DNA of 58,087 nucleotides from Eubacterium sp. (GTDB taxonomy: Bacteria > Bacillota > Clostridia > Lachnospirales > Lachnospiraceae), in NCBI GenBank assembly GCA_017459345.1, contig JAFUDC010000007.1:1-58087 (forward strand), given 5' to 3'. The notes under the pieces were generated by a model. The model saw nothing but the letters and a program-made list of their open reading frames with translations. It did not search any database and was not told where the DNA came from. The translations under genes and the position numbers were made by a program. This document shows, in pieces, positions 9,065 through 20,961 of this stretch. Numbering within the stretch: the first letter of the stretch is position 1; the number at the start of each line of letters is the position of its first letter.

Positions 9065-10561
9065 ATGCAATACATTTGCTCAGCTGATGAGATGCAGGCC
9101 ATCGATGCCTACAGCATACAGGAGATCGGCATTCCCGGAATTGTACTGATGGAGAAGGCCTCCCTGGCTCTTGAAGATGAGATTATCCGGCGTTTTCCTG
9201 ACCCTGTACCGGTTCTCATTATCACAGAGAAGGGCAACAACGGCGGGGATGGCCTGGCCCTGGGCCGTCTGCTGATGGCCAGGGGATATCCGGTGAACTT
9301 CTATGAGATTGGTGCAGTGAAGAGAGCTACGGAGTCCTATATGATCCAGAGGAATATCCTGGACCAGCTGGGGGGACATTTTGTGGATGAGCTCCCTTCT
9401 GAGGGGGCTGATATCATTGTGGATGCCATCTTCGGCGTGGGGCTTAAAAGAGAGGTTGGGGGGATTCACAGGGAAATTATCGAGAGGGTTAACAAGATGG
9501 ATGCCTTCCGGGTGGCCGTGGATGTCCCAAGCGGTGTAGATGCCTCAAGCGGTCGGATTCTGGGATGCAGTTTTAAGGCTGACCTTACGGTCACCTTCGG
9601 CTTCAATAAGCTGGGTCTGATCCTCTATCCGGGAGCAGACCAGGCCGGCCAGGTCCTGGTGAGGGATATCGGCTTTCCTCTGGAATCGGTTCTTCATGTC
9701 CTTCCCCGCACCCTGACCTATAGCCCGGAAGACCTGACCCTTCTTCCCGGGAGAAGATCCTGGTCCAATAAGGGAAGCTATGGAAAGGTTCTGCTGATCG
9801 CGGGTTCCTGTAATATGGCGGGGGCTGCTTATCTGTCAGCTCTGGCTGCATACAGGACAGGCTGCGGTCTGGTGAGGATTTTTACCTGTGAGCAGAATCG
9901 GGTCATCCTTCAGAGTCTGATTCCTGAGGCCATCATGACGACCTGGACCAGTCATCAGGATATGGAAAGACTCCTTCCTGAAGCAATTTCCTGGGCGGAT
10001 GTCATAGGGATTGGTCCCGGTATCGGCCAGGGGGAGATGGCCGGACAGCTTCTTCACACAGTTCTTTCCTGCGGGAAGGTTCCTCTGGTGATCGATGCGG
10101 ATGGCATCAACAGTCTGGCAAAGATGGATGTCCTTTCCCATGCAGGACTTTATCAGGAGTATTCCGGAGGCATGATTCTCACCCCCCACCTGAAGGAAAT
10201 GGAGCGCTTAAGCCATATTCCGGTAAAGGATATACAGGAGAGCCTGCCTGAGACAGCCGGACGATTTGCCGATCCCGGCCATGTCTTTGTTTTAAAAGAT
10301 GCCAGGACCCTTGTGTCCGACGGGACGGAACCCACATATATTAATCAGAGCGGTAATCACGGGATGGCTGTGGGAGGCAGCGGAGATGTGCTCACCGGGA
10401 TCATCTGCGGCCTGCTGGCTCAGGGACTGTCCCTGCTTGAAGCCGCCAGACTTGGAGTGTACTGCCATGGGCTTGCCGGGGATGCGGCTGCCGCCGAAAA
10501 AGGCTGCTACAGCATGAGCGCCCGTGATATAGCGGAGAGCATCTGTCAGGTAATCCGCTGA
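9065..10561 (+). CDS. nnr: Bifunctional NAD(P)HX epimerase / ADP-dependent NAD(P)HX dehydratase
   Basis: This enzyme repairs hydrated, inactive NADH and NADPH. The 498-residue protein fuses an N-terminal YjeF_N epimerase domain (about 1-210; GNNGGDGLALGRLL, DAIFGVGLKR, DVPSGVDASSG) to a C-terminal ribokinase-like dehydratase (about 225-495; NKGSYGKVLLIAGS, GPGIGQG, NQSGNHGMAVGGSGDVLTGIICGLLAQG). The length is that of the fused bacterial family. In many Firmicutes nnr is near acpS, alr and mazEF; here mazF follows 128 bases downstream, while acpS and alr are missing. Confidence 0.94.
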   Translation: MQYICSADEMQAIDAYSIQEIGIPGIVLMEKASLALEDEIIRRFPDPVPVLIITEKGNNGGDGLALGRLLMARGYPVNFYEIGAVKRATESYMIQRNILDQLGGHFVDELPSEGADIIVDAIFGVGLKREVGGIHREIIERVNKMDAFRVAVDVPSGVDASSGRILGCSFKADLTVTFGFNKLGLILYPGADQAGQVLVRDIGFPLESVLHVLPRTLTYSPEDLTLLPGRRSWSNKGSYGKVLLIAGSCNMAGAAYLSALAAYRTGCGLVRIFTCEQNRVILQSLIPEAIMTTWTSHQDMERLLPEAISWADVIGIGPGIGQGEMAGQLLHTVLSCGKVPLVIDADGINSLAKMDVLSHAGLYQEYSGGMILTPHLKEMERLSHIPVKDIQESLPETAGRFADPGHVFVLKDARTLVSDGTEPTYINQSGNHGMAVGGSGDVLTGIICGLLAQGLSLLEAARLGVYCHGLAGDAAAAEKGCYSMSARDIAESICQVIR

Positions 10562-10689: not shown

Positions 10690-11037
10690 ATGATCATAAA
10701 ACGGGGAGATATCTATTATGCCGACCTGCGTCCGGTGGTGGGATCGGAGCAGGGAGGAGTCAGGCCTGTCCTGATCATCCAGAATGATTCAGGCAACCGC
10801 CACAGCCCGACGGTGATCTGCGCCGCAATCACCAGCCGGATGAATAAGGCAAAGCTGCCCACCCATGTGGCTTTGTCCACCAGAGAGTGCCAGATCAGCA
10901 GGGATTCCGTGATCCTGCTGGAACAGATCCGCACCATAGATAAGAAGCGATTAAAAGAGAGAGTATGCAGACTGGATGCCGAGTCTTTGCGGAGAGTGGA
11001 CCGGGCGTTAAAGGTCAGTCTGGAGCTGATTACATAG
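10690..11037 (+). CDS. mazF: MazF/EndoA-type mRNA endoribonuclease toxin
   Basis: A 115-residue protein that is very close in sequence to Bacillus subtilis EndoA/Maz[31 protein letters not shown] with the catalytic Arg25, and AAITSR with Thr48. The family cuts single-stranded mRNA at short sites and is normally held inactive by a MazE antitoxin encoded just upstream. The 128 bases upstream contain no reading frame for an antitoxin and the gene before it is nnr, so no partner is encoded next to it. GGAG at 10677-10680 is the likely ribosome-binding site. CBS-domain and yebC genes follow. Confidence 0.93.
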
Positions 11038-11069
11038 GGATTAGTCCTATGCATTTGGAGGTGTGATGT

Positions 11070-11999
11070 ATGAGTGTCTCGTCTTTTACAGTGCTTATGG
11101 CCGTCATGATGGCAGTGTTTCTGCTGATGATGGCTGTTGTGCTGGTCAAAGTACTTCGATTGACGGATACCATGAAAAAAGTAGATTTTTCAAAATTCAG
11201 GGAAGAAGAGGAGAATGAATACGAGGAGGAGATCCGCAACATTGCCAATGAAGGCCATGAGCAGGGTGTGATCCTGGCGGATGAGGCCAAGATGATCTCC
11301 AACATATTTGAATTTGGCGATATGGATGCCAAGGATGTCATGCAGTTTCGACAGAAGATTGTGGGTCTGGAGAGCCGGATCTCCCTGGAGGAGGCCATCC
11401 GCTTTATGGTAAACCAGCATTATTCCAGGTATCCGGTTTATGAGGAGGACCTGGATCACATCCTGGGCATCTTACATTTCAGAGATGCGGTTAAGTGCTG
11501 GCTGGAGACTCCGGACAAGACCATCGCCGAGATTGTCCGGAAACCGTTTTATGTGCATGAGGCCATGGATATCAATGAGCTCCTGTCCACCATGAGGAGC
11601 AATAAGAGCCATCTGGCGGTGGTCCTGGACGAGTTCGGCCAGACAGCCGGTCTGGTGGCCCTGGAGGATATCCTGGAGACCATCGTCGGGGATATCCTGG
11701 ATGAGTATGATGTGGAGGAGAAGGAGATTGTCCGTCTTTCGGAAGATACCTTCGTCGCCTCCGGCATGATCCGGCTGGATGATCTGGAGGATGTTCTGGA
11801 AATCACATTTGACACGGAAGAGTTTGAGACCCTGAACGGCTTCCTGATCAATGAGATCGGCCACCTTCCGGAACCTGGCGAGGAGGTGGAAGTACATTTT
11901 AAGGGATATTGCTTTACCAGCTCCGAGCAGGTCAACAATGTGCTCCGCCAGATCCACATCAGGAAAGAGGAAGAGGGGGAGGCCGGCCAGGGAGAATAG
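11070..11999 (+). CDS. CBS-pair / CorC-HlyC domain protein with a single membrane anchor
   Basis: A 309-residue protein with one N-terminal membrane segment (about 8-28), an acidic helix, a CBS pair (about 90-215; RYPVYEEDLDHILGILHFRDAV, LAVVLDEFGQTAGLVALEDILETIVGDI) and a C-terminal CorC_HlyC domain (about 225-300; LNGFLINEIGHLPEPGEEV). Full-length relatives of the CNNM/HlyC group carry a four-helix DUF21 membrane domain before the CBS pair; here one helix replaces it, so the protein is probably a nucleotide-sensing accessory rather than a transporter. GGAGGTG at 11056-11062 sets the start. It follows mazF by 32 bases and may be cotranscribed. Confidence 0.85.
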   Translation: MSVSSFTVLMAVMMAVFLLMMAVVLVKVLRLTDTMKKVDFSKFREEEENEYEEEIRNIANEGHEQGVILADEAKMISNIFEFGDMDAKDVMQFRQKIVGLESRISLEEAIRFMVNQHYSRYPVYEEDLDHILGILHFRDAVKCWLETPDKTIAEIVRKPFYVHEAMDINELLSTMRSNKSHLAVVLDEFGQTAGLVALEDILETIVGDILDEYDVEEKEIVRLSEDTFVASGMIRLDDLEDVLEITFDTEEFETLNGFLINEIGHLPEPGEEVEVHFKGYCFTSSEQVNNVLRQIHIRKEEEGEAGQGE

Positions 12000-16687: not shown

Positions 16688-17398
16688 ATGGGTTATTACG
16701 GATATGGATATGGAATGTATTTTGACTGGACCTATATCCTGGTGATCATTGGTGTGATCATCACAATGATAGCATCCTCCAGGGTGAATTCCACCTATGC
16801 AAAGTTCCAGAAGGTCCGGAGTCATTCCGGCATTACGGCTGCAGAGGCTGCCGAACGGATCCTTCACGGAGCAGGAATCTATGATGTCAGGATTGAGCAT
16901 ATCTCGGGTAATCTGACGGATAATTATGATCCCAGAAGCAAGGTGCTCCACCTGTCTGATGCCACCTATCAGTCAACTTCCGTGGCGGCCATCGGCGTGG
17001 CGGCCCATGAGTGCGGGCATGCCATACAGGATGCCCGGGGCTATGCGCCTCTCCAGGTTCGGGGGGCTATCGTGCCGGTTGTGAATATCAGTTCCAATCT
17101 GGCCTGGCCCATTATCCTTGTCGGGGTTTTACTGAGCTTTAATCATACACTGATTACTCTGGGCATTGTCCTTTTCTCCCTTACGGTCCTTTTCCACCTG
17201 ATTACCCTGCCGGTGGAGTTTGATGCTTCGGGAAGGGCACTGAAGATACTTAGCAGTTCTCATATGCTTTATGAGGATGAGGTGGCCGGGGCCAGGAAGG
17301 TTCTGACAGCTGCGGCCATGACATACGTTGCCTCGGCAGCGGCCTCCATCCTGCAGCTTCTGCGTCTTCTCCTTCTTTTCGGAAGGAGAAGGGACTGA
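16688..17398 (+). CDS. Membrane zinc metallopeptidase (Zn_peptidase_2 family)
   Basis: A 236-residue protein of the neutral zinc metallopeptidase 2 family (Bacillus YugP type). It has an N-terminal membrane segment (about 14-32), the zinc site HECGH (107-111) with a likely third ligand Glu177 in LPVEFDASGRA, two further hydrophobic segments (about 128-170) and a C-terminal one. The start has an AAGGAGG ribosome-binding site. The stop overlaps the rlmH start by one base (TGATG), so the two are translationally coupled. Its substrates are unknown. Confidence 0.9.
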   Translation: MGYYGYGYGMYFDWTYILVIIGVIITMIASSRVNSTYAKFQKVRSHSGITAAEAAERILHGAGIYDVRIEHISGNLTDNYDPRSKVLHLSDATYQSTSVAAIGVAAHECGHAIQDARGYAPLQVRGAIVPVVNISSNLAWPIILVGVLLSFNHTLITLGIVLFSLTVLFHLITLPVEFDASGRALKILSSSHMLYEDEVAGARKVLTAAAMTYVASAAASILQLLRLLLLFGRRRD

Positions 17399-17865
17399 TG
17401 AAGGATATCCGGATTCTGTGTGTGGGCAAGGTCAGAGAGAAGTTTTTCGCAGATGGGATTGATGAGGCTTTAAAGTCCATCAGGAATTCCTGTCCGGTTT
17501 CCATCCTGGAGTGTCCGGATGAAGCCACGCCGGATAATGCATCTCCTGCACAGGAGAGGCTGATCAGGGAGAAGGAGGGTGCAAGGATTCTCTCCCATAT
17601 CAGGGAGGGGGACTATGTCATCGCTCTTAGCATAGACGGCAGACATTATGATACGGATCAATTGCATAGACATCTATCCAAGATAAGGGAACGGATATCC
17701 GGCTCCCTTATCTTTGTCATAGGAGGGTCGCTGGGCTTATCTGATCAGGTGATAAAGAGGGCAGATGAAAAACTGAGCTTTTCTGCCTTGACATTTCCCC
17801 ATCAGCTGATGAGACTGATGCTTGCTGACCAGATTGCGTCATGGACCAGCCTGCGCCGGCTATAA
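17398..17865 (+). CDS. rlmH: RlmH-family 23S rRNA methyltransferase lacking the C-terminal tail
   Basis: RlmH methylates N3 of pseudouridine 1915 in helix 69 of 23S rRNA. The 155-residue protein keeps the SPOUT AdoMet-binding knot: FVIGGSLGLSD (Gly109, Gly110) and LTFPHQLMRL (133-139). The family normally ends with QxYRAFxIxxxxxYHK, the tail that meets the rRNA; here the protein ends ...LADQIASWTSLRRL with none of the YR or PYHK residues, and no other frame at the 3' end restores them. The N-terminal helix also differs from the usual EYxKRLxRY. A second RlmH-like protein at 20521-20961 has exactly the missing parts. Confidence 0.88.
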   Translation: MKDIRILCVGKVREKFFADGIDEALKSIRNSCPVSILECPDEATPDNASPAQERLIREKEGARILSHIREGDYVIALSIDGRHYDTDQLHRHLSKIRERISGSLIFVIGGSLGLSDQVIKRADEKLSFSALTFPHQLMRLMLADQIASWTSLRRL

Positions 17866-17870
17866 GTCTC

Positions 17871-19478
17871 TCAAGGTTCCGACTGTGCAGAGAGATACTG
17901 TATGCCCAACTGGGTTACGGTGAAAAAAAGGGCATAAGATATCCCGCACAGGGCAAGCAGGACCAGAGGGTGGATCGTCATGACATTTCCCAGGCAGGCA
18001 TATAGCTTCTGGGACAGCCATCCTCCTCCCAATGAAAGTGCTGCAGGCAGCAGGATTGTTTTTTCTACGGAAAAAGAAAATGTGGTAATCTTAAGCAGGG
18101 TAATGAGGTCGAGGATGAGCTGGAGGACATATCCGGCAAGCATTCCGATCAGGTATCCCTGAATACCGTAGAGGGGGATTAGTGTCAGTATGCAGGCAAT
18201 CCGCACTGCAACACATAGCAGGCTGTGGTACATGGTCTTTTTGGTAAGCCCGAAACCATTTAATATGCTCATGATGGTGGAGGCAGCGTACATAAAAGGA
18301 CAGAGAACAGCGAAGGAGTAAATGTACTGTCCGGCCTTTATGCTATGGAAAACCGTCTCCCCCAGAAGGTTCCCGTAAAAGCGGAAGGCAAAGGTGGAGA
18401 AGATTCCGATTACAATACAATAATGAAGACTCTGTGAGATGGTATAGCGTATCTGTGCCATCTTTTTTTGTTTGTAGGAGGCAGAGATAGCCGGCAGGAG
18501 CATGACAGACAGAGAGTTGGTGATTGCGGCAGGAAAATAGAGAAAGGGCAGAGCCATTCCTGTCAGTCTGCCGAAGGCGGCAAGGGCCAGGTCCTGATCT
18601 CCAAAATGCTGCATAAGGACATAGGGAATCAGGATGGACTCAAGGCTGCTTACCATTGTCAGACAAAAATGATTGACGGTCAGGGGGATGCTGAAAGAGA
18701 AGAAGTCCCTGAGGAGGGCGCGAGTCTGAGTCCGCTTTGTCTCAGTGCATTCATGAAAACTGCTGCATGTTTTTCCCGGACCAATTCCTTTATGACTGTT
18801 ATGGGGGATTGTTCTGGTAGATTTCCTTTCCATCAGATAAGGTCGGAGAAGGATCGTGTAGAGATAGGCGAAAATTGTGTAGACAGCAGATACAGCCTCT
18901 CCGCAGACCATACCCCAGACTGCCAGGCGGACATCAGCAGAGGCAGCATAGAGAGTGATGGACAAAAGATAGATGGAAACCACCCTGGCAGATTGTTCAA
19001 TAAGCTGGCTGAAGGCGGAGACACCGGATTTGCCCCTGCCGATATAATAGCCATGAATGCAGGCTTTGACTGCAACGAAGGGAAGAGCCAGGGATGCAAT
19101 GCGCAGAGGCTCCTGGCAGGAAGGGTTTTTTAGCAGGTATTTACTCAAATAACATGAAGTTTTATACAGAAATATGGTTAATAGTAAGGAACTGACCAGG
19201 TTGATCAGGCAGGTAAGATGGACAAGCCTCCTGGCCTGATTCCCCTGTCTTCCCGCATAAAGGCGGGAGGTCATATTGGAGATGCCTGTCTCAAATCCAT
19301 GACAGACCAGGGTGAAACAGAGAGCATATGCAGGGAAGATGAGAGAGTATATACCCAGCTCCTTAGCGCCAATAAGATCTGCAAGGAATATTCTGTTATA
19401 GAAGCCCAGAATCCTTGACAGTATTCCGGAGATAGTCAGCAGCAAGGTTCCCGTCAGGATTGTTTTTTTGTAGGACAT
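17871..19478 (-). CDS. MATE-like lipid flippase (SpoVB / oligosaccharide flippase group)
   Basis: A 535-residue, highly hydrophobic protein with about 14 membrane segments, of the polysaccharide-transport/SpoVB branch of the MVF superfamily. The N-terminus (TLLLTISGILSRILGFYNRIFLADLIGAKELGIYSL) is typical. A basic, non-hydrophobic insert (about residues 215-250, with KGIGPGKTCSSFHECTETKR) sits in the middle, between the two six-helix bundles. The family moves lipid-linked precursors for cell wall or spore cortex across the membrane; whether this organism sporulates cannot be judged here. It faces rlmH tail to tail only five bases away. Confidence 0.85.
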   Translation of the reverse strand: MSYKKTILTGTLLLTISGILSRILGFYNRIFLADLIGAKELGIYSLIFPAYALCFTLVCHGFETGISNMTSRLYAGRQGNQARRLVHLTCLINLVSSLLLTIFLYKTSCYLSKYLLKNPSCQEPLRIASLALPFVAVKACIHGYYIGRGKSGVSAFSQLIEQSARVVSIYLLSITLYAASADVRLAVWGMVCGEAVSAVYTIFAYLYTILLRPYLMERKSTRTIPHNSHKGIGPGKTCSSFHECTETKRTQTRALLRDFFSFSIPLTVNHFCLTMVSSLESILIPYVLMQHFGDQDLALAAFGRLTGMALPFLYFPAAITNSLSVMLLPAISASYKQKKMAQIRYTISQSLHYCIVIGIFSTFAFRFYGNLLGETVFHSIKAGQYIYSFAVLCPFMYAASTIMSILNGFGLTKKTMYHSLLCVAVRIACILTLIPLYGIQGYLIGMLAGYVLQLILDLITLLKITTFSFSVEKTILLPAALSLGGGWLSQKLYACLGNVMTIHPLVLLALCGISYALFFTVTQLGIQYLSAQSEP

Positions 19479-19612
19479 AGATAAGATTCCGTCGGAGTGG
19501 TTTATAAAGGATATGTATTATATAAGGAAAATATGAGCAGCGATAAAGTAATGGGTAAAGTTCATTCGGATTTGGATTTCCATTCTCGTATAATTCTCGG
19601 TAAACTTTCATC

Positions 19613-19641
19613 TTGCAAATATCCCGGAGCTGTAGTATAAT
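19613..19641 (+). promoter_or_regulatory. Promoter of tRNA-Arg
   Basis: TTGCAA (19613-19618), 17-base spacer, TATAAT (19636-19641), 28 bases before the tRNA. Confidence 0.85.
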
Positions 19642-19668
19642 AGCTGTCGGAAAGTTTGGCTTTCCAGT

Positions 19669-19742
19669 GGTCCAGTAGCTCAGTTGGATAGAGCAACGGT
19701 TTCCGGAGCCGTGTGTCGGGAGTTCGAGTCTCTTCTGGATCG
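19669..19742 (+). tRNA. tRNA-Arg, anticodon CCG
   Basis: A complete cloverleaf can be folded: acceptor GGTCCAG (19669-19675) with CTGGATC, a D arm GCTC/GAGC, an anticodon stem ACGGT/GCCGT around the loop TTCCGGA, a five-base variable loop and a T arm GGGAG-TTCGAGT-CTCTT with two G-U pairs. The anticodon CCG reads the arginine codon CGG. The discriminator base is G and no CCA end is encoded. It stands alone with its own promoter and terminator. Confidence 0.93.
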
Positions 19743-19745
19743 TTT

Positions 19746-19788
19746 GAAAGAGGAGTGCAGAGATTAAGAACTGTGCTCCTCTTTCGAT
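19746..19788 (+). terminator. Terminator of tRNA-Arg
   Basis: A 15-bp stem: GAAAGAGGAGTGCAG (19746-19760) with CTGTGCTCCTCTTTC (19771-19785), with two G-U pairs and a ten-base loop. The T-rich tail is short. Confidence 0.85.
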
Positions 19789-19837
19789 TAATAGAGTATT
19801 TCGATCTTATACTTTGAGAGAATGATATCTGATGTGT

Positions 19838-19908
19838 AGTTCCTTCCCTTGCAGAAGGGACTGGTTCAGCATTTTCTAATGATGGAAACAGATATTCCAA
19901 TATTGGAA
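19838..19908. promoter_or_regulatory. Hairpin and operator-like palindrome before the DUF1858 gene
   Basis: AGTTCCTTC (19838-19846) pairs with GAAGGGACT (19854-19862), nine pairs with one G-U. Then TTCCAATATTGGAA (19895-19908) is a perfect 14-base palindrome of operator type, 36 bases before the start codon. No convincing -35/-10 pair was found nearby. Confidence 0.45.
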
Positions 19909-19943
19909 GCAGATTATATGATAATATGAGGAGGATATATATT

Positions 19944-20144
19944 ATGAGAAGATTAACAAAGGATACAACCATCGGTGAACTGCTTAACATGGACCCGGAG
20001 ATCGGAGGAGTCCTGACCAGTATAGGTATGCACTGTCTCGGATGTCCCTCAGCCCAGAGGGAAACCCTGGAACAGGCAGCAGATGTACATGGCCTTGATG
20101 TAGATGACCTGATCGAGGATCTCAAGGGGTTTATGGCATACTGA
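19944..20144 (+). CDS. DUF1858 small redox-disulfide protein
   Basis: A 66-residue protein made only of a DUF1858 domain, the type found alone or fused to hybrid-cluster and redox proteins. MHCLGCPSA carries the CxxC pair (Cys31, Cys34), followed by ETLEQAADVHGLDVDDLIEDL. An upstream in-frame ATG at 19926 contains the GAGGAGG ribosome-binding site (19928-19934) that belongs to the ATG at 19944. A probable partner gene begins 27 bases downstream. A thiol or metal-binding role is likely from the family; the actual partner is unknown. Confidence 0.85.
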   Translation: MRRLTKDTTIGELLNMDPEIGGVLTSIGMHCLGCPSAQRETLEQAADVHGLDVDDLIEDLKGFMAY

Positions 20145-20171
20145 TTGTTGTCCCTTAGAGGAGGTATGGCT

Positions 20172-20402
20172 ATGGCAACACTGGTTCAACATGAGATTGA
20201 CGGAACAGATACATTTATCCAGGCAAAGCTGGCAGATGATTATTTTATTATGCTGGATCCGAATGCGAAAGACAGATGTCTTGCGAAAGATATTCATCTA
20301 TTTAAGGGTGAGGATGGGACTTATTATCTGGCAGACAAGGACTGTGTCGTGCTTGCCGTAGGGATGACAACGATCCGGACCTATATCAATTATCTGCTGT
20401 AA
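20172..20402 (+). CDS. Small protein of unknown function
   Basis: I do not recognise this 76-residue protein. It is acidic, without membrane segments, with a beta-rich look: DDYFIMLDPNAKDRCLAKDIHLFKGEDGTYYLADKDCVVLAVG. Two cysteines lie in its middle and last third. Of two close in-frame ATGs (20166 and 20172), the second is seven bases from AGGAGG (20159-20164) and is chosen. It directly follows the DUF1858 gene and is closed by a terminator, so the two form a small unit. Confidence 0.7.
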   Translation: MATLVQHEIDGTDTFIQAKLADDYFIMLDPNAKDRCLAKDIHLFKGEDGTYYLADKDCVVLAVGMTTIRTYINYLL

Positions 20403-20457
20403 AGTGGGATGTTCTGCGATGATGGAGATTGATAAACTCCTGTTGGAATAGTGAATC

Positions 20458-20489
20458 AGCCATGTGATTGTAAGATCCATGGCTTTTTT
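20458..20489 (+). terminator. Terminator of the DUF1858 unit
   Basis: AGCCATG (20458-20464) pairs with CATGGCT (20478-20484), followed by a run of six T. Confidence 0.85.
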
Positions 20490-20520
20490 CGTGTTTTCCA
20501 TGATGCCGACGGAGATTTCT

Positions 20521-20961
20521 ATGAAGTACGAATTATATCTTTTTGGAAAAAAAAATAGTAAGTCATATCATAAAAAAGCCATTGATGAATATATGAAGAG
20601 GCTGTCCAGATACTGTAAGATAAGCTGTACTATTATTGGAAAGCAGAAAGAATGGGAGAAAGCCTGGGCTGAGCATGATCAAAAAGTGCTGGTATTACCC
20701 GGTAAGGAATCTGTATCATCTGAAGAATTCAGCAGGATGCTTGGCTCCTTCGAGATGAGTGGAAACAGCAAGCTGGCATATTTTATTCCTGATATCATTA
20801 CGCAGAAGGATTGGTGTGAGATCGTCATACGGGATAAGAAAGATATTCACATACTAAATCTTTCCGATCTGTCCATGGGCACAGGTTTGTGCGGTGTGGT
20901 GCTGGCAGAGCAGATTTACAGAGGGTATCGGATCCTAAATAATCATCCTTATCATAAGTAG
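20521..20961 (+). CDS. RlmH-like protein with a degenerate AdoMet site
   Basis: A 146-residue homologue of RlmH. The N-terminus (KKAIDEYMKRLSRYCKI, 18-34) and C-terminus (AEQIYRGYRILNNHPYHK, 129-146) are textbook RlmH, and PGKESVSSEEFSRML (60-74) matches the family's GKxLSSExFAxxL. But the AdoMet loop, normally FVIGGSxGL, reads YFIPDIIT, and the FPHQMMR motif is replaced by SMGTGLCG. About 20 residues after the first strand are also missing. It should not bind AdoMet in the normal way. The ATG at 20521 with GGAG at 20511-20514 is preferred to the upstream in-frame ATG at 20464. Confidence 0.82.
   Translation: MKYELYLFGKKNSKSYHKKAIDEYMKRLSRYCKISCTIIGKQKEWEKAWAEHDQKVLVLPGKESVSSEEFSRMLGSFEMSGNSKLAYFIPDIITQKDWCEIVIRDKKDIHILNLSDLSMGTGLCGVVLAEQIYRGYRILNNHPYHK

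Follow-up and report, generated by a model that had tools for sequence, protein, structure and literature searches.

Can the single active site of a ribosomal RNA methyltransferase be shared out between two genes? The question is raised by contig JAFUDC010000007.1 of a Eubacterium sp. genome (Lachnospiraceae; assembly GCA_017459345.1), analysed here over positions 1 to 58,087 of the forward strand, a stretch referred to below as the window. It carries two genes related to rlmH, here called A and B, which lie 2.7 kb apart on a common strand (Table 1). RlmH (YbeA/OrfX) is the SPOUT methyltransferase of 23S rRNA pseudouridine 1915, and A and B resemble it in family, fold and, by comparison with Koh et al. 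(PMC5430550), in the asymmetry of a composite active site. The known enzyme is a homodimer encoded by one complete gene, whereas here there are two genes with one side each, neither of them complete.

The explanation that we favour, with a probability of a little over three in four, is that A and B together constitute the RlmH of this organism: a heterodimer with a single composite site, in which B derives from islands inserted in rlmH and the pair was fixed after loss of the island. A would bind S-adenosylmethionine (AdoMet, SAM) in its knot, while B would bring K25 and R26, on a helix facing the RNA, together with the catalytic residues E138-R142-Y152-H153-K154; the composite A/B site would then methylate 23S rRNA pseudouridine 1915. 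Neither homodimer should work, because A alone lacks the tail and B alone lacks the AdoMet pocket. As for history, insertion of an island with a large serine recombinase at the 3' terminus of rlmH would remove or alter the tail, and the island's own B gene would make good the loss in trans, so that each heterodimer has a single active site. Several lineages, the Lachnospiraceae clade of the window among them, would then have lost the island while the truncated rlmH and B remained and diverged together, and because both stayed the host would now depend on two genes. What bears on this directly are the losses in the sequences, their distribution, the topology of the trees, the ends and displaced tails of seven islands, and the recombinases identified by Pfam in three cases.

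Two incomplete RlmH homologues

The preliminary description of this DNA, made from the sequence alone, had reported that A has the AdoMet knot without the YR...PYHK tail, and that B has the tail and the EYMKRLSRY helix with the GGS loop and FPHQ motif lost. Both statements are borne out. A has 155 residues and ends ..FPHQLMRLMLADQIASWTSLRRL before its stop codon, and no YR..PYHK tail lies downstream in any of the three frames. A is therefore not a simple frameshift; with similar ends found across the genus, frameshift or sequencing error was ruled out. B has 146 residues and contains EYMKRLSRY and EQIYRGYRILNNHPYHK, and both GGSxG and FPHQ are absent.

Table 1. Features of the window, with residues in E. 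coli RlmH numbering
Feature	Position	Strand	Remark
A: resident rlmH without C-terminal catalytic tail	17398..17865	+	VGKxxE, GGSLG and FPHQ (AdoMet side) present
A, glycine loop of AdoMet knot, FVIGGSLGLSDQV	17713..17751	+	Present in A, lost in B
B: RlmH homologue, tail donor, AdoMet pocket absent	20521..20961	+	EYxKRLSRY helix and EQIYR..PYHK tail present
B, catalytic tail segment EQIYRGYRILNNHPYHK (E138, R142, Y152, H153, R/K154)	20908..20958	+	Invariant residues in genus alignment
Polysaccharide/MatE-type transporter gene	17871..19478	-	PF01943/PF01554; between A and B, outside the pair
tRNA-Arg(CCG)	19668..19743	+	Between A and B, outside the pair

With a cut-off of 27 bits, the Pfam profile PF02590 gives A 137.9 bits (profile positions 3-141 of 154) and B 73.4 bits (positions 1-154). 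Both proteins fall below the NCBIfam equivalog cut-offs for RlmH: A scores 166.9 against 172 for NF000985 and 127.3 against 149.7 for TIGR00246, and is also under the cut-off of seven further NCBIfam RlmH models, and the best score of B is 66.1 against 172. As single chains both have high-confidence predicted folds (pLDDT, the predicted local distance difference test, is 94.9 for A), and structural comparison of the B model with VIA-align indicates that the RlmH fold is retained. There is no third rlmH match in the genome: a PF02590 search of all 2.96 Mb of the assembly (97.4% complete) gave exactly two matches, A and B.

In the genus, represented by 24 genomes including that of the window, A was found in 21, B in 20 and both in 19, and no complete RlmH was found in any. 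Ten of the 11 best-quality genomes (at least 90% complete, at most 5% contaminated) have both genes, the other (G007) having B only. A alone was seen in G019 (70% complete) and G021 (75%), neither gene in G011 (84%) and G014 (76%), and in G012 the B gene is in two pieces at contig ends. Since both genes, with identical losses, recur in 19 of 24 genomes, chance or sequencing error does not account for the pattern. Named relatives met in a scan of titled genomes include Eubacterium sp. An11 and Candidatus Anaerobutyricum stercoripullorum.

Division of conserved residues between A and B

Which parts of RlmH each gene has kept was assessed in an alignment of 48 A proteins, 46 B proteins, 56 complete RlmH and E. 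coli RlmH, in which 48 columns are at least 90% conserved among the complete proteins. The latter were picked for having the tail, so that the conservation of tail columns among them is by choice, and the B proteins were partly recognised by their YHK ending. As many as 34 of the 48 conserved positions are split between A and B. The 22 columns on the A side (V8, G9, K12, E13, E37, D40, E56, L72, G76, G103, G104, S105, G107, S121, F122, T126, F127, P128, H129, Q130, M132 and R133) are retained in 93-100% of 42 non-island A proteins against 0-38% of 40 non-island B proteins. The 12 on the B side, with the start methionine excluded (E22, R26, L27, Y30, S81, G95, Y141, R142, I146, Y152, H153 and K154), are retained in 95-100% of the same B proteins against 0-45% of the A proteins.

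H129 is present in 48/48 A and 0/46 B proteins, and G107 in none of the 46 B proteins, while GGSLG is present in the window's A. R26 is found in all 56 complete RlmH and all 46 B proteins, but in none of the 21 A proteins of the genus, which also all lack Y152, H153 and R/K154. The B tail has E138 in 45/46 proteins and R142, Y152, H153 and R/K154 in all 46. In the A proteins of the genus E138 has drifted (E in 14, Q in four and D in three; examples are L022, L091, L101 and L020), as if released once B took over the tail side. The split of the active site had originally been described for the knot and the tail; the complementary loss stands, yet it was understated, as conserved positions outside both also divide.

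In E. coli RlmH, according to Koh et al. (PMC5430550), the AdoMet pocket lies in one monomer, and R25, R26, R142 and R154, along with the catalytic tail, in the other; the same paper reports no detectable activity for the mutants E138A/Q, Y152F, H153F and R154A. To judge from the aligned sequences, the division between A and B follows this published asymmetric site.

Islands inserted in rlmH

Where might a tail donor such as B come from? Seven islands for which both ends could be located lie in the 3' end of rlmH; the tail of the gene is changed or lost, a displaced tail is found 11-22 kb off and B lies in between. In Paenibacillus sanguinis a large serine recombinase of 608 residues adjoins an rlmH ending EPYRR (island of 22.0 kb), and in Lutispora one of 704 residues adjoins an rlmH ending GER (15.9 kb). 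In these two the lost end (..GEPYHK and stop) is present on the far side, and joining the flanks, as was tested for both, gives a complete RlmH. The Lutispora island has TTACCGAATACATGAC at one end and its reverse complement at the other. The remaining five islands, all in the P. sanguinis family (G1165, G1178, G1184, G1210 and G1230), leave rlmH with a tail EPYRL or EPYRF, contain B and have a GEPYHK stub 11.3-17.9 kb off. The Pfam combination PF00239, PF07508 and PF13408 is matched in the P. sanguinis, C. gottheilii and Lutispora regions; the recombinase of G1178, G1184, G1230 and G1165 was called from an N-terminal motif only, and none is evident in the G1210 island. Taken together, the rlmH tails at islands are YRR, YRL, YRF, GER and YHTKP, the reading frame of the target being altered.

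In six island-borne cases rlmH keeps nearly everything except the tail, and B is already without the pocket. These cases suggest an order of events in which the tail of rlmH was lost when B was already pocket-less.

Other loci lack some of these marks. G809 has a B with 92% DNA identity to that of Lutispora over 460 bases and an rlmH ending NNEP right before YHK; no recombinase was recognised in the 36.5 kb read, and the locus is probably a decayed island. A Clostridium metagenome-assembled genome (G325) has a stop in rlmH immediately before a relic DAYHT. A pattern search for a displaced tail found none in Bacillus mediterraneensis (60 kb) or B. massiliensis (40 kb), and in the window neither a recombinase nor a displaced tail adjoins A or B. 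The window pair would be the fixed descendant of an island and not itself an island.

A broader statement, which we make with rather less assurance than that for the window pair while still thinking it the probable one, is that mobile islands break rlmH at its catalytic tail and carry a pseudo-enzyme subunit that would restore the active site in trans, tying a host function to the island. Their decay would have left an obligate two-gene enzyme in several lineages, relatives of gut Anaerobutyricum and Anaerostipes among them.

Some further features of the islands were seen. In Cytobacillus gottheilii (L133, L217 and L218) stubs of the rlmH end, GEPYHK, GEPYHK and DEPYHK, occur about 23, 27.5 and 31 kb past rlmH, which suggests stacked islands. 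Between B and rlmH of B. mediterraneensis (L131, 10439-13036) there is defence-like cargo, with PF20277 (ABC-three-component), an HNH endonuclease and DUF2326. The Lutispora island (L222, 10987-17013) has an apparent type I restriction-modification operon, named from reading the translations, and a tyrosine integrase-like gene (PF00589) at 10987-11616 besides the serine recombinase.

Distribution of B and its association with damaged rlmH

The wider distribution was assessed first within Lachnospiraceae, where each genus was represented by a single genome (299 in all, of which 274 have an RlmH match). As far as inspected, a tail-less rlmH occurs in 10 of the 274, namely that of the window, G063, G093, G129, G154, G185, G206, G211, G266 and G282, and B is present in all ten. 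Genes were read directly in every genome with a best match weaker than 1e-52, in three others close to that value and in the 30 with the strongest matches, which are all complete. Four genomes suspected of a damaged RlmH (G290, G092, G102 and G160) proved to have complete ones, and what looked like a second RlmH in G118 and G278, or a fragment in G086, proved to be parts of complete genes cut by contig edges. The sole RlmH match of G290 (99% complete; L067, 1501-1974) is very divergent (IAGSLGPG, FTHLMTR) with the tail kept.

B is not confined to this family. A scan of titled genomes with the B profile of the genus, limited to the best 80 of 569 confirmed stretches, and its follow-up found B also in Bacilli and in other Clostridia. 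In the class of C. gottheilii clear B types occur in 2 of 398 genomes; 27 of the next 28 loci were read, all complete, and weaker matches were left unread. Among 391 Clostridia there are eight outside Lachnospiraceae as well as the window's, from the 30 best loci read, and in the P. sanguinis family B is present in 11 of 394 genomes, once as a pseudogene. B adjoins A in several other genera; in G871, G797 and G1092 it is co-directional with A and about 160 bases or less downstream. B was not found on plasmid or phage records, where 23 plasmid and 22 phage tblastn matches (about 370-480 bases, 24-37% identity) were judged by length to be ordinary RlmH, nor among viral contigs, where none of 164 pattern matches was confirmed as B. 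RlmH-length matches on the plasmid records NZ_CP140268.1 and NZ_CP149720.1 and the phage-labelled MT835478.1 may be real cargo or mislabelled chromosome.

Where an intact B and a partner rlmH were both available, the rlmH tail is altered or missing in 53 of 57 cases. The partner is tail-less in 19/19 genomes of the genus, 9/9 from nine other Lachnospiraceae genera, 11/11 from other Clostridia and five of five further Lachnospiraceae records (L125, L144, G330, G331 and G332, the first two searched at the locus only); in Bacilli the tail is altered or missing in 9/13, three of the nine being YHTKP. The 57 omit G1331, where B is a pseudogene, as well as G007 and G894, for which no partner rlmH turned up. 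B itself led to most of these genomes; the figure of 53/57 is therefore a measure of how frequently B is accompanied by a damaged tail, and not of how often islands carry B.

Could B have some other role?

A number of observations weigh against the heterodimer explanation. Four genomes of the P. sanguinis family (G1260, G1328, G1402 and G1430) hold an intact B together with an intact rlmH (GEPYHK). In G1328 the two are 2.6 Mb apart and in G1402 and G1430 on different contigs, but in G1260 B is 1.5 kb from the intact rlmH, on a remnant with a stub and no evident recombinase, so the link between B and a broken tail is not a strict one. The YHTKP tail of B. mediterraneensis, C. gottheilii and B. 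massiliensis still has Y152 and H153, and these rlmH may function alone. G007 (96% complete) has B, and A was not found there by searches that included a profile search; G894 likewise has B and no partner rlmH was found. In the alignment S123, L136 and Q139 are retained by both proteins and ten columns are only partly split (K10, Y23, K25, E41, one insert column, F100, I102, M125, E138 and E150), and the A and B trees of Lachnospiraceae have 6 of 19 splits in common. Most rlmH of the family sample were judged by score, and a high-scoring tail-less gene could have been missed. No RlmH match was obtained in 25 of its 299 genomes, ten of these among the 246 best assemblies, which means that RlmH is dispensable. 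Finally, the islands were located via B, and the share of such rlmH islands without B is not given by these data.

The four exceptions also allow B a regulatory role, and an alternative along these lines survives best. B could be a SAM-dead regulator or ribosome-binding factor carried on islands, for example one damping RlmH or shielding the decoding centre, with A either working alone by an altered mechanism or inactive. The retention in B of K25/R26 on the RNA side and of the tail would suit such a factor, as would the B adjoining an intact rlmH and the Y152 and H153 left in three island genomes. We nevertheless consider it unlikely. Single substitutions of residues that A lacks abolish the activity of E. 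coli RlmH (PMC5430550), and the residues that A has lost are mostly those that B has kept, well beyond the tail. In the P. sanguinis family, moreover, eight genomes have B no more than 15 kb from rlmH, and the tail is broken in six of them; the other two are the remnant in G1260 and the pseudogene in G1331 (L355). In the latter B, at about 549-947, is broken by three stops and rlmH (9920-10399) is intact, as expected if B is required only with a broken tail. The four exceptions can be fitted to the heterodimer explanation: a functional-looking B survives in them alongside an intact rlmH, the island being outside rlmH or looking decayed.

As to whether the two genes always occur together and never with a complete RlmH, 19 of the 24 genomes of the genus have both, set against G007, G019 and G021 with one; no complete RlmH was found in the genus, but one accompanies B in the four P. 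sanguinis-family genomes.

Phylogeny and origin of the pair

The preliminary description had read the pair as a duplicated homodimer on the way to a heterodimer. That rlmH was duplicated locally in this lineage and its copies then lost complementary parts would agree with the closeness of the two genes on one strand and with their adjacency in several other genera. In a tree of 107 proteins, to which more Bacilli had been added and whose bootstrap is not fully settled, the B proteins of Bacilli and Clostridia nonetheless form one clade (100/100). The A proteins are the hosts' own rlmH, scattered among complete RlmH; the A label changes ten times, with at least nine changes, gains or losses, forced by well-supported branches. 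An earlier tree of 88 proteins gave the same B clade (100/99), with nine changes of the A label, eight of them forced. Long-branch attraction might draw the B proteins together, yet they remain one clade (98/98) when the pocket and tail columns are removed, with 11 changes of the A label, six forced. Approximately unbiased (AU) tests reject a clade of A plus B both for the genus of the window (p-AU 0.0003) and for 16 sampled Lachnospiraceae pairs (p-AU 0.004), and B is found on rlmH islands elsewhere. We therefore regard duplication as very improbable. Of the original proposal, the heterodimer part is supported by the complementary loss, by the lack of a third rlmH match in the genome, by the near constancy of the pair in the genus and by a partition that matches the asymmetric site as given in PMC5430550; the origin by duplication is not.

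Coevolution was assessed from pairwise distances. In Lachnospiraceae A and B distances are correlated (r 0.85, n=22; r 0.77, n=16; in each case reached by 0/5000 shuffles), whereas B fails to track the host rlmH in the P. sanguinis family (r -0.18, n=10). P. sanguinis and G1165, for instance, are separated by a distance of 0.04 in rlmH and of 0.78 in B.

Selection on both genes

Might both genes simply be decaying, with 3-methylpseudouridine 1915 (m3Psi1915) no longer made? Essential residues have gone from A and the pocket from B, a few genomes of the genus retain one gene (G019, G021, G007) or neither (G011, G014), and some Lachnospiraceae lack RlmH altogether. Against this, dN/dS is 0.06-0.16 for A (computable in 11 of the 14 closest genus pairs) and 0.05-0.14 for B (in 10 of 14), the other pairs being saturated. 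Both genes are thus under purifying selection, which rules them out as pseudogenes, and the correlated distances, the residues invariant in A and in B across the genus alignments and the confidently predicted folds of both also leave decay with hardly any likelihood. Equally hard to credit is that A and B are separate homodimers acting on different RNAs, for which we found no direct support, as B lacks the AdoMet pocket (H129 and G107 absent in 46/46) and A the tail.

For the heterodimer explanation, then, we infer from the sequences the formation of the heterodimer, its activity, the dependence of the host on it and the order of events.

Comparison with known systems

SCCmec, the Enterococcus cassette chromosome (ECC) and other islands of rlmH resemble those carrying B in that they sit at the 3' end of the gene and have large serine recombinases and variable cargo, and also in inverted repeats at the ends and in composites with several rlmH-end repeats, according to PMC6222049 and PMC10061031. 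The end repeats of ECC and of the staphylococcal cassette chromosome (SCC) carry the last rlmH codons, and integrative elements at gene ends spare their target, as described in these papers and in PMC5704250. The B islands differ: the last codons are not rebuilt, the tail being changed or lost (YRL, YRR, YRF, GER, YHTKP), and B is carried.

Pairing of an active methyltransferase with a catalytically inactive relative is also seen in METTL3-METTL14 and DNMT3A-DNMT3L (PMC10908127). In those pairs the catalytically silent protein binds the other and either activates or regulates it; B would instead supply the catalytic tail of a split site. The open-access literature searched yielded no description of a two-gene RlmH or of a B gene on rlmH islands. 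Both of the methyltransferase pairs named above are eukaryotic and have folds other than that of RlmH.

Obligate heterodimers are usually put down to duplication of a homodimer followed by drift. If the explanation given here is right, the route from homodimer to heterodimer would be traceable through capture from a mobile element and not through duplication of a host gene. Candidate intermediates exist in living genomes, from intact rlmH, through rlmH broken by an island that carries B, and truncated rlmH next to B with no island in evidence, to long-fixed pairs that diverge together. Because these can be read in living genomes, a textbook question on the origin of heterodimers becomes testable with an enzyme of 150 residues and a known assay. 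At the hot spot of SCCmec, a mobile element may both pay for and exploit the damage to its integration site.

Surroundings of the pair

The neighbours of A and B in the window are genes for an alcohol dehydrogenase, a zinc peptidase, the transporter, the tRNA-Arg, a DUF1858 protein and glutamate dehydrogenase. An open reading frame of 85 residues at 20145-20402, immediately upstream of B, has no Pfam match. Elsewhere in the genome of the window, two pseudouridine synthases of the RluA family score over the cut-off.

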